From Marinobacter halotolerans (lineage in GTDB: Bacteria; Pseudomonadota; Gammaproteobacteria; Pseudomonadales; Oleiphilaceae): 64,000 bases of DNA. The stretch spans positions 248,001 through 312,000 of the forward strand of contig NZ_VMHP01000001.1 in assembly GCF_008795985.1 (NCBI RefSeq), in the 5' to 3' direction. The translations under genes were made by a program, and so were the position numbers. The notes under the pieces are model-generated. The model made no database searches. It saw only the letters and a list, made by a program, of their open reading frames with translations, and was not told the DNA's origin. The number at the start of each line of letters is the position of its first letter. Position 1 is the stretch's first letter. This document shows positions 8,468-49,724 of the stretch, one piece after another.

Positions 8468-8579
8468 AGCGGTTGGGGGATGGCTTTCCAAAACTGTGCG
8501 GAGCCATGGATGGCGGAGCCCAAGCGTCACATGGATGTGCCGCAAGGAGCGTGTTTTGGAAAGCCATCGCCCAACTGCT
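8468..8579 (-). repeat. Large palindromic intergenic element, copy P1 (core type B, inverted)
   Basis: Outer arms of 27 nt at 8468-8494 and 8553-8579 pair with two mismatches. The 58-nt core (8495-8552), read on the minus strand, nearly matches that of copies at 44.7 and 32.8 kb (CGCTTGGGCTCCGCCAT...). The core contains two mini-hairpins, GCCAT/ATGGC and CACAT/ATGTG, each closing on a GG dinucleotide. The element ends 2 nt from the hisG stop codon and occupies most of the gap to hisD, so it is transcribed within the operon. Confidence 0.85.
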
Positions 8580-8581
8580 GA

Positions 8582-9229
8582 CTACTCCGAAGCCCGACGC
8601 TTCTCGACAGCAGCTGCCATTTTTTCAATGATGGGGTTAAGGCCTTGATGTTTCATCTTCATTGAAGTGCGGTTCACTACAAGCCGGCTACTGATGTGCT
8701 CAATCAGCTCTCGTGCCTCCAGACCATTAGCCTTCAGCGTGTTACCCGTATCAACAATGTCGACAATTTCATCAGCGAGATTAAGAATCGGAGCCAGCTC
8801 CATCGCACCGTAGAGCTTGATGATATCCGCCTGACGTCCCTGGGCCGCATAGTAACGACGGGCAAGATTTACGAATTTGGTAGCAACACGGATCCGCCCT
8901 GACGGGGTTTGCTCACCTTTAATACCCGCCGTCATCAAACGGCAGCGGGAGATGTTTAAATCCAGCGGCTCGTATAGCCCTTCCCCACCGTGCTCCATCA
9001 ACACGTCTTTGCCGGTCACGCCAATATCCGCACCACCATACTGGACATAGGTGGGCACGTCGGTCGCGCGCAGCACCAGGATCCTGACGTTCGGGTCCGT
9101 GGTGGGGAATACAAGTTTCCTCGATTTCTTTACATCGTCTACCAGTTCTATACCTGCCTCTTTCAGTAGCGGCAGGGTTTCATCAAGAATCCGGCCCTTC
9201 GACAGGGCGATGGTGATGGAATCGGTCAT
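8582..9229 (-). CDS. hisG: ATP phosphoribosyltransferase HisG, short form
   Basis: First enzyme of histidine synthesis, joining ATP and PRPP. At 215 residues it is the short form, which lacks the C-terminal regulatory domain and in other bacteria needs the HisZ subunit for activity; hisZ is not in this window. Seen: [10 protein letters not shown] at the N-terminus, [13 protein letters not shown] near residue 64, and the PRPP-binding segment [17 protein letters not shown]. The length matches the Pseudomonas enzyme. It starts 21 nt after the murA stop codon, and a large palindromic element follows immediately. Confidence 0.95.
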
Positions 9230-9250
9230 GCTCTGTTCCGGTCGATGTCT

Positions 9251-10513
9251 TTACGCTGGCAGGCGGCGGATGCTCGCGCCGAGTAGCTGCAGCTTTTCCT
9301 CAATACATTCGTAACCACGGTCAATGTGGTAGATGCGGTCCACAACGGTTTCACCATCCGCTACCAGCCCTGCAATGACAAGACTGGCGGAAGCCCGCAA
9401 GTCGGTGGCCATAACCGGTGCACCGGTCAGGTGATCGACACCGGTAATAATCGCGGCGTTGCCCTCCAGGGTTATGCCCGCGCCCATGCGGATCAGCTCC
9501 TGCAGGTGCATGAACCGGTTTTCAAAGACCGTCTCCACAATAGTGCCAGAGCCCTGTGCAACGGCGTTCATCGCCGCAAACTGGGCCTGCATATCCGTCG
9601 GGAAGGCCGGGTAAGGTGCCGTACGGATACTAACGGCCTTGGGCTGGTTGCCCTTCATGTCCAGAGAAATCCAGTCCGGACCCGTATCAATCTTGGCGCC
9701 GGCTTCTTCCAGCTTGAGCAGAACCGCCTCAAGCAGGTCTTCCCGGGTATCCTTCAACTTCACTTTGCCCCGGGTGGCAGCAGCGGCCACCAGATAAGTG
9801 CCGGTTTCGACACGGTCAGGCAGAACGTCGTAATGACAGCCGTGCAGCCGTTTGACGCCATTGATTTCAATGGTCGCGGAACCATGCCCCTTGATGTCGG
9901 CGCCCATGGCGATCAGGCACTCGGCGAGATCCACCACTTCCGGCTCCCGGGCGGCGTTCTCTAGGATGGTTTTGCCATCGGCCAGCGCGGCGGCCATCAT
10001 CAGGTTCTCGGTACCGGTTACGGTCACGGTATCCAGGAAGATATGAGCGCCTTTCAGGCGGCCGTTGGTTTTGGCCTTGATGTAGCCGTTTTCAACCGTG
10101 ATTTCCGCGCCCATGGCTTCCAGGCCACGGATGTGAAGGTTCACAGGACGGGTACCTATGGCACAGCCGCCTGGCAGGGACACTTCGGCTTCACCGAAAT
10201 GGGCAACCAGCGGGCCCAGCACCAGAATCGAGGCGCGCATGGTTTTGACCAGCTCATAGGGTGCGTGAAAATGCTTGATGGTGTTGGCATGGACTTCCAC
10301 GCTCATTTTCTCATCAATCATCAGCTCTACACCCATGCGGCCCAGCAGCTCGATCATGGTGGTGACGTCGTTCAGGTGTGGCAGATTGCCCACGGTGACC
10401 GGTTCATCCGCCAGCAGCGTCGCCGCCAGGATGGGAAGCGCAGCGTTCTTGGCGCCGGAGATCCGGATTTCGCCAGACAATGGCTTGCGGCCTCTGATCA
10501 GAAGTTTATCCAC
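9251..10513 (-). CDS. murA: UDP-N-acetylglucosamine 1-carboxyvinyltransferase MurA
   Basis: Cytoplasmic enzyme for the first committed step of peptidoglycan synthesis (enolpyruvyl transfer from PEP to UDP-GlcNAc). The 420-residue length is standard. Lys22-Asn23 in SGAKNAALP and the catalytic cysteine in [15 protein letters not shown] (Cys117, the fosfomycin target residue in the family) are present. It lies 39 nt downstream of ibaG and 21 nt upstream of hisG; the ibaG-murA-hisG order is conserved in pseudomonads. Confidence 0.97.
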
Positions 10514-10552
10514 GGTTGAATCCTGTTGTTGTCGGGACGGTTATCAGGACGT

Positions 10553-49006: not shown

Positions 49007-49038
49007 GTTGGATTACGACTTCGTCTTATCCGACCTAC
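49003..49038. repeat. REP-like palindrome, copy 5, at the lnt stop codon
   Basis: GTAGGTTGGAT (49003-49013) pairs with ATCCGACCTAC (49028-49038) with one G-T pair. It sits exactly between the convergent lnt and ybeL stop codons (3 nt before the latter), so it ends both transcripts in a hairpin. No T-run. Confidence 0.85.
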
Positions 49039-49041
49039 CTG

Positions 49042-49593
49042 TTACTCCGATTTCCTGGGCCAGCGACTGGTCACACGTTCGTAATAGTGGGAGTCACAGG
49101 CGTCACAGGGTTCCAGATGGCTGGTCGCGGTCAGGCAGCGCATATGGCCGCAGTTCAGGCATCGGAACATGCCGGCTGTGGCCACCTCACCACTGATGTA
49201 CTGGCTTGGCTCCTTGTTCTCCAGCTTCTGACTAAGCTCGAGCGTGTCCAACCTGGTCTTGTCAGCAACTGAAAACAGCACGTTTGCCAGCTGGTGCTCC
49301 AGCAGGGAAATGTCCAGTTGCAGCCACTCACTCAGGCCTTCCCCGGTTTCCTCCACAAAGTGAAGCAAATGCTCCAGATCCCGTTGCAGGTAGGCGCCCA
49401 ACAGATCAGCTTCCTCACGGGTCATCTCGGCCAGGTCGTACTCGAACTCCACAGCCCGCTCAATCTCTTCTTGCAAAGTATCGCGGGTGGTTTCCTCCAT
49501 CTCACTAAGCCGTGACTGAACCCGTTCCAGCATGCGGTCATAGGCTTCAAGTGCTTTGCCTGAAAGATGATTTCTTTCCTGATCCGTCGCCAT
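49042..49593 (-). CDS. ybeL: Zinc-ribbon protein YbeL (DUF1451)
   Basis: A 183-residue DUF1451 protein. Acidic helical body, C-terminal zinc ribbon with two CxxC pairs (CLNCGH and CDACDS). The start at 49593 has GGGGAGAG upstream; a longer reading runs into palindrome P6. The gene neighbours leuS in E. coli too. Function is unknown. Confidence 0.88.
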   Translation of the reverse strand: MATDQERNHLSGKALEAYDRMLERVQSRLSEMEETTRDTLQEEIERAVEFEYDLAEMTREEADLLGAYLQRDLEHLLHFVEETGEGLSEWLQLDISLLEHQLANVLFSVADKTRLDTLELSQKLENKEPSQYISGEVATAGMFRCLNCGHMRCLTATSHLEPCDACDSHYYERVTSRWPRKSE

Positions 49594-49616
49594 AACTGCT
49601 CTCCCCTCTGGAGTAC

Positions 49617-49724
49617 GGGGCAACTGGGCCTGGCTGATCAGGGCACGCTGTAAATACATCCATGTACGCTTGACAAAAACATCCGTGTTTTTGACATCCC
49701 TGATCAGCCAGACCCACTCGCCCC
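49617..49724 (+). repeat. Large palindromic intergenic element, copy P6 (core type C)
   Basis: Arms of 27 nt at 49617-49643 and 49698-49724 with three mismatches. Core 49644-49697 contains mini-hairpins TACATccATGTA (49655-49666) and AAAAACAtccgTGTTTTT (49675-49692). The core sequence is different from types A and B, but the plan and the ACGC boundary are the same. Lies in the ybeL-leuS divergent gap. Confidence 0.8.

Follow-up and report, generated by a model that had tools for sequence, protein, structure and literature searches.

A 64,000-nucleotide stretch of the Marinobacter halotolerans genome (contig NZ_VMHP01000001.1, positions 248,001 to 312,000; hereafter the window) carries six large palindromes, each with a 27-29-bp stem capped with two small hairpins and a core of 54-58 nt. 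From comparative sequence analysis, we consider that they are probably copies of a dispersed, multi-copy CsrA-binding RNA element that belongs to a branch of the TwoAYGGAY family. A preliminary description of the window had located all six and called them intergenic; both points were borne out, with elements 4 and 5 extending 3 nt further at either end. They took ranks 1-5 and 7 among the 11 pairs found by an inverted-repeat search of the window, and the DNA fold of every palindrome was better than those of 200 of 200 of its own dinucleotide shuffles (z from -4.1 to -11.8). When aligned on their cores, the six form one family with one plan, as had been proposed, sharing two hairpins and a core edge that is ACGC in five elements and ATGC in one. 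The same description centered most of the mini-hairpins on CATCCATG, which we found at the center of just 6 of the 12 loops; on the opposite strand, ANGGA was present in all 12.

The family is visible only on that opposite strand, where the loops are AUGGAU-like and point to the Rfam family TwoAYGGAY (RF01731). Hence the earlier statement that no named family has this plan has to be withdrawn. An Rfam scan of the window at the gathering cut-off found nothing, and at a relaxed threshold RF01731 matched elements 4 and 5 along the full model, with no match to element 3, in the region 42900-45200. In the whole genome, RF01731 gave 27 matches at E <=10, including elements 1, 4, and 5 and excluding 2, 3, and 6, and no element reached the gathering cut-off (best 38.3 bits vs 43 bits). 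We then built a covariance model (R1) from 12 copies, namely the six of the window and six of the RF01731 matches, with the structure set by hand. The search for further genomic copies proposed in the preliminary description yielded, with this model (E <=1; 150 of 1054 candidates scored), 51 matches in the 3.78-Mb genome, corresponding to 40 distinct strong places (79.6-118.8 bits), six of them in the window. Of the remaining matches, seven were opposite-strand echoes of these places, two were enlarged copies, one was degenerate, and one was a fragment. Every one of the 27 RF01731 matches coincided with one of the 40 strong places on the identical strand (half of the 12 R1 training copies had been taken from these matches); 13 of the 40 (elements 2, 3, and 6 included) had no RF01731 match at E <=10.

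Two elements from other genomes bridge the two models. L199, found by R1, scored 91.1 bits with R1 and 45.2 bits with RF01731, and was the sole locus over the RF01731 cut-off among 20 other-genome loci found by R1, while L234, found by RF01731, scored 55.0 bits with that model and 73.9 bits with R1. Five of six loci with accepted RF01731 members (L231-L233, L235, L236) had no R1 match at E <=10. On these model scores, our elements appear to be a divergent branch of TwoAYGGAY and not its center. They share with it the outer stem, the two hairpins with ANGGAY loops, the strand, a similar length, and the presence of multiple copies in several genomes. They differ in their short second hairpin, which is long in the RF01731 consensus, in another conserved junction, and in a near-perfect long outer stem. 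The loops agree with AYGGAY in the form ANGGA, the second base being any of the four, so the Y holds only partly. In L231, L232, and L233, which lie over the RF01731 cut-off, the second hairpin reads ACACGACGT and has no GGA loop; elements with one site and elements with two may thus be combined in the family as published. Three other genomes (G146, G069, G085) contained many short RF01731 matches over the core alone (about model positions 43-126), without the long outer stem.

Rfam types TwoAYGGAY as cis-regulatory and places it with CsrB in clan CL00106. Weinberg et al. (2010; PMC2864571) present it as probably an RNA and probably not cis-regulatory, and a later paper (PMC4333381) proposed CsrA binding from a motif match, termed work in progress. 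No later test of its function was found in the literature searched, and among titles and abstracts of open-licence papers there was no description of such elements in Marinobacter.

R1 matches were present in 31 of 31 genomes of the genus, including M. halotolerans, with 3 to 118 per genome. These counts contain a few opposite-strand echoes and come from scoring no more than 120 candidates in each genome. In a sample of 229 genomes from the class, 41 had matches, again including our own, under stricter filters and with at most 16 candidates scored per genome. On 80 named loci around miaB relatives, R1 matched Marinobacter sp. S0848L, Halopseudomonas xiamenensis, Kineobactrum sediminis, Alteromonas sp. 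MMG017, and a Haliea metagenome-assembled genome, and three others weakly.

The AYGGAY strand is predicted to fold into a long stem (P1) and two hairpins (P2 and P3). In the 12-copy alignment, standard pairs filled 88% of the cells vs 65% in shuffles, 34 of 39 pairs changed on both sides, and none of 500 shuffles reached any of five measures. The covariation score was 0.64, and no higher than 0.17 once the partner was shifted by 1-3 columns. RNAalifold, run on the 40 own copies as aligned by plain MAFFT with no structure supplied, returned the same three-way junction with a shorter P2, and of its 39 pairs 32 had double changes, not all of them independent as the copies are paralogues. Thus, the three-way junction of the preliminary description and the covariation that it had proposed to look for, which proved strong, were both recovered in the two analyses. 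The junction outside the loops was also strongly conserved, in the 40 own copies and in 37 elements from outside the genus (41 matches minus four, all under 45 bits, that were dropped). The 5' arms of different own copies had a mean identity of 46% vs 27% when shuffled, a weak consensus, and in five copies with an identical core these arms were 39-82% alike (mean 53%). The core is kept by its sequence, with loops and junction fixed, and the stem P1 mainly by its pairing.

A mismatch in such a stem also tells which strand matters, since a G·T on one strand is an A·C on the other, and the two should be equally frequent if both strands or neither matter. With every 5' arm aligned against its 3' arm in reverse complement, the P1 mismatches on the AYGGAY strand came to 34 G·T and 3 A·C, plus 30 of other kinds, across the 40 own copies (binomial p 1.2e-7 for 34:3). 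Per element, G·T was in excess in 23, A·C in none, and 17 were even. The ratio was 44:7 in 70 copies of 11 relatives (>=60 bits, six weaker ones dropped), which are not mutually independent, and 26:7 in the 37 elements outside the genus (p 0.0013; 15 elements vs 5). The bias followed the polarity of the element and not the chromosome strand (13:1 in 17 plus copies, 21:2 in 23 minus copies), and it had the same direction in all gene contexts, with small numbers in some (antisense 3:0, divergent 5:1). In addition, a U·G pair closed the inner stem end (columns 36/89) in 39 of 40 copies in RNAalifold. With G·T so far above A·C, these comparisons show selection on the AYGGAY strand as a folded single strand, for which RNA is the simplest reading.

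The loops suggest a partner for such an RNA. When the 40 own copies were aligned with MAFFT, with no rule for the loops, GGA was invariant in both loops and N was variable, and the A before N was invariant in loop 2 and at least 90% conserved in loop 1. A loop parser that looked for hexaloops holding GG (present by construction) on a stem of >=3 bp read 106 of 110 elements. In the first loop of these, the A was present in 105 and the final A of GGA and the C-G closing pair in 106, while N was T in 75, G in 25, C in 3, and A in 3. The second loop resembled the first, eight being read in a shifted register. Loop starts were 23-25 nt apart in 105 of the 106, leaving 17-19 nt between hexaloops. 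Outside the genus, ANGGA was found in 34 of 37 first loops and 36 of 37 second loops. Of the three first-loop exceptions, L204 and L207 lack only N and one has G for A. The published high-affinity CsrA/RsmE site consists of a hexaloop, ANGGAX, seated directly on a stem closed by a C-G pair; N and X are free, and N is absent from RsmZ stem-loops 3 and 4 (PMC4005645). Our loops match this site in hexaloop, closing pair, and free N, and L204 and L207 resemble the two RsmZ stem-loops. According to another report, one CsrA dimer bridges two sites 10-63 nt apart with an optimum over 18 (PMC7652899), and the spacing of our loops falls within this distance.

CsrB/RsmZ-type small RNAs are encoded by one to a few genes per genome and bear many sites per RNA. 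The elements share with CsrB (RF00018) and RsmZ (RF00166) the GGA hairpin loops, and differ in that each copy has just two sites and the copies number 40 or more. No CsrB was found over the cut-off in the M. halotolerans genome and no RsmZ over the cut-off in the 31 genus genomes (two with weak matches; RsmX and RsmY were not searched). M. halotolerans has one csrA, and its product carries Val42, Arg44 (by count), and Glu46; Val42 and Glu46 are important in CsrA. The gene was found in 31 of 31 genus genomes and was single in 29.

In the mechanism that we propose, the element would act as RNA, and most copies would be carried in transcripts extending beyond gene ends and not start from a promoter of their own. 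The two hexaloops of the element, of the form C-[ANGGAY]-G and about 18 nt apart, would hold one CsrA/RsmA dimer, with the long stem keeping its two hairpins separate and open. Given the 40 copies of M. halotolerans and the roughly 100 or more of some relatives, the result would be a spread-out CsrA binding capacity, a sponge in pieces, and/or CsrA docking sites that alter the fate of the transcripts carrying them.

Several observations weigh against this explanation. R1 itself favors G·U over A·C and includes the loops, so its matches are not blind to either; the 40 own copies, though, score far above its threshold. Selection on single-stranded DNA of the AYGGAY strand would yield the same wobble bias. 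P2 is weak, being 64% paired, with three of its seven pairs failing in 8 to 10 of the 12 training copies and its lower half unpaired in most of them. The number of matches varies from 3 to 118 per genome, yet csrA is single in nearly all genus genomes, which makes a dose-critical sponge doubtful. In the class, csrA (positives counted by hand) was present in 37 of 41 genomes with the element vs 194 of 229 overall, and a Fisher test on the good genomes gave p 0.21; the gene is too common for its presence to be predictive. Four genomes with the element showed no csrA, three of them 67-88% complete and one (G256) 98% complete. Upstream of the elements, TATAAT (<=1 mismatch) occurred within 45 nt in 4 of 40 copies vs 6.2 expected from shuffles, and with no enrichment of a -10 box we rejected an own promoter. 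The location next to promoters reported in the preliminary description is likewise unsupported for the element itself.

Genomic context, taken for the 40 own copies from a crude codon-usage gene caller, adds to these objections. Co-directional gaps held 26 copies, convergent gaps eight, and divergent gaps six; one copy overlapped a predicted open reading frame and another a gene end by a few bases. Orientation was not fixed, with 18 sense vs 8 antisense copies in co-directional gaps (p 0.076). At least one gene 3' end bordered 34 of the 40, and the distance to the stop codon was <=50 nt at 17 of 26 sense and 13 of 16 antisense gene ends. The nearness to gene ends is real and the strand preference is weak, since nearness holds for antisense ends too. 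Finally, the core between trmH and miaB is inverted within like arms in M. halotolerans relative to three congeneric genomes (G007, G003, G053), which is what recombination between the arms would give. As antisense copies, divergent copies, and an inverted core indicate that the element can do without a constant relation to any single gene, a role in titration would suit the data better than gene-by-gene control.

An RNA of the TwoAYGGAY family that binds a partner other than CsrA, or that serves as a transcript-end stabilizer or processing site (for instance a stem cut by RNase III), would leave ANGGA as a coincidence. We regard this as unlikely, albeit the strongest of the alternatives. The strand evidence argues for a folded single strand and not for CsrA in particular, the junction outside the loops is conserved beyond the need of two CsrA hairpins, and the frequent gene 3' ends beside the copies would suit such a role. 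On the other side, the base left free in ANGGA is the same one left free in Csr/Rsm structures, the C-G closing pair and the spacing fit CsrA, and the Rfam clan is shared with CsrB.

The history of the sites bears on the remaining alternatives. Set against the window, 12 congeneric genomes (48 kb of each) had recurrently occupied gaps at hisC/hisD, hisD/hisG, mreB/gatC, window positions 36200-36340, trmH/miaB, miaB/ybeZ (two), and dksA-like/leuS (two), which is how we take these genes to be named. Only one match lay at a place not shared by two or more genomes; it was in G028 (base 52), at the edge of the stretches where few genomes were covered. In 25 disjoint nearest ortholog pairs, 86 stem columns had changed. 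In 47 of them both bases had changed and one Watson-Crick pair replaced another; G·U was gained or lost in 19, A·C in 6, and some other mismatch in 11, and 3 fell outside these classes. The comparison thus shows that most places are common across the genus while the stems drift via compensatory change. It also shows the apparent loss of some copies through deletions inside the palindrome. Six vacancies in five genomes resembled, by eye, deletions inside a former element: 36200 in G003 and G036, trmH/miaB in G024, miaB/ybeZ in G017 and G041, and hisD/hisG in G016. The 36200 place of M. halotolerans looked deletion-like as well. At 36200-36340, a minus/plus pair is present in G010, G017, and G053, a single scar in our genome, and a hybrid in G046. 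Judged by eye, the scar (36180..36345, no strand assigned) is probably what remains of two earlier elements, one having its outer left arm fused to the other's outer right arm. Nothing was readable at the hisC/hisD vacancies (M. halotolerans, G046, G036, G016), at the other trmH/miaB and dksA/leuS vacancies, or at dksA/leuS in L009. We also considered insertion of a core into a pre-existing palindrome, or arms arising by inverted duplication, and rejected both as the vacant sites show no bare palindrome; compensated drift suffices because the 5' arms of the own copies retain a weak consensus.

Selfish mobile DNA of the REP/REPIN type, with the AYGGAY strand as the single-stranded DNA recognized by a transposase and transposition as the cause of the swings in copy number, seems quite improbable to us. 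REPINs are short intergenic palindromes in many copies, often in inverted doublets (PMC3116915), and our elements resemble REPs, BIMEs, and REPINs in these respects. Their occurrence in both orientations, loose relation to genes, highly variable number, head-to-head pairs, and flanking motif (CNCCNAAG on the 3' side, with a weaker 5' copy) would fit, and so would the one unshared place in G028. REPs are recognized by a conserved sequence, whereas here the stem is free in sequence with pairing kept. All other occupied places are shared, and the five identical-core copies, with 5' arms 53% alike on average, are unlike fresh copies from transposition. A Y1 transposase as the mover was rejected, as copy number was unrelated to Y1_Tnp counts: seven genomes with 70-118 matches had none, and five with 3 to 7 matches carried 2 to 22 (other enzymes were not tested). 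One element copy searched against plasmid and phage records gave no match.

It is very unlikely that the palindromes work as cruciforms in double-stranded DNA, as signals for the nucleoid, gyrase, or replication whose arms are kept alike by template switching in the hairpin. The near-perfect palindromes, the loose orientation to genes, and the 47 double Watson-Crick changes would be expected, but both strands would then be used alike and G·T should equal A·C, which the 34:3 asymmetry disfavors. Bidirectional intrinsic terminators have almost no chance of being the answer: the stems are very stable and intergenic and eight copies lie in convergent gaps, but a U-tract (>=5 T in the 8 nt after the modelled stem) is almost never seen (AYGGAY strand, 1 of 40; opposite strand, 2 of 40), the T-runs are within the stem, and six copies are in divergent gaps. 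This agrees with the preliminary view that these are not simple terminators.

The six elements of the window are as follows. Element 1 (8468..8579, AYGGAY strand plus) has its stem at 8468-8494/8553-8579, with 27-nt arms that are 93% complementary, and loops in CATGGATG at 8505-8512 and 8530-8537. It scored 112.3 bits with R1 and 37.1 bits with RF01731, below the cut-off, and lies between two minus-strand genes, presumably hisD and hisG, antisense to both. Element 2 (32755..32864, minus; stem 32755-32782/32837-32864) has 28-nt arms, 82% complementary, and loops ACGGAT and AAGGAT (octamers at 32819 and 32794). It scored 98.4 bits with R1, without an RF01731 match at E <=10, in the divergent gap of what we take to be mreB and gatC. 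Element 3 (43029..43141, minus; stem 43029-43057/43113-43141), with 29-nt arms that are 100% complementary, has the loops AGGGAT (octamer at 43095) and AGGGAA (about 43071-43078), scored 106.6 bits with R1 and had no match with RF01731, and is in a divergent gap, presumably trmH/miaB.

Elements 4 and 5 form a minus/plus pair between genes assumed to be miaB and ybeZ/PhoH. The left member, element 4 (44685..44796, minus; stem 44685-44713/44768-44796), lies between two plus-strand genes and has 29-nt arms, 93% complementary, loop octamers at 44726 and 44750, and scores of 111.3 bits (R1) and 28.1 bits (RF01731). The right member, element 5 (44969..45081, plus; stem 44969-44997/45053-45081), is sense to both flanking genes, with 29-nt arms that are 97% complementary, loops ATGGAT (octamer at 45008) and AGGGAA (about 45032-45039), and scores of 92.4 and 29.4 bits. 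Element 6 (49617..49724, minus; stem 49617-49643/49698-49724), in a divergent gap between what are presumably a dksA-like gene and leuS, has 27-nt arms, 89% complementary, and octamers at 49657 and 49680; it scored 92.9 bits with R1 and had no RF01731 match at E <=10.

Close pairs recur in the genus. Their AYGGAY strands diverge, the minus member coming before the plus member, and the two differ in core and arms. Examples are window 44685-45081 and G000:C1:369749/369999, 372250/372429, and 1428405/1428613, and others occur in relatives; L209, a pair outside the genus, is head to tail. Separate REP-like repeats of the TGTCGGATT...AATCCGACCTACG type adjoin the elements at window 42950-43020 and 44797-44968, and also lie between pair members in several relatives. 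Most of the 40 own copies have the motif CNCCNAAG closely 3' of the stem, as read on the AYGGAY strand, and for its weaker same-direction copy in the 5' flank 0 of 300 shuffles were as good. Four enlarged elements, L197 (G000:C1:372429), L195 (G000:C1:1985904), L150 near 1800-1911, and L174 near 11200-11400, carry a hairpin-rich insert of about 90 nt at one identical point of the P3 loop. These inserts are very alike and may either represent an extended version of the element or derive from a small element with this loop as its target. The copy at mreB/gatC in G053 (L177:7423-7618) carries another, dissimilar insert (about 80 nt) in its P2 loop, and this insert has its own ACGGAT hairpin.

What is new here is the strand evidence, the ANGGA loop code with its free N, and the compensatory drift at shared places. 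With 3 to 118 matches per genome, Marinobacter offers a comparative set large enough to reveal the selected strand and the free loop bases of this family. As a tentative extension, and one that we hold to be possible rather than likely, Marinobacter and other Gammaproteobacteria may have a distributed CsrA network, in which tens to about a hundred two-site modules lie in the transcripts of many genes, free CsrA falls as overall transcription rises, and a dedicated CsrB-type small RNA would not be needed. If CsrA does bind these elements, it would be restrained by sites across the chromosome instead of by an RNA from one locus.

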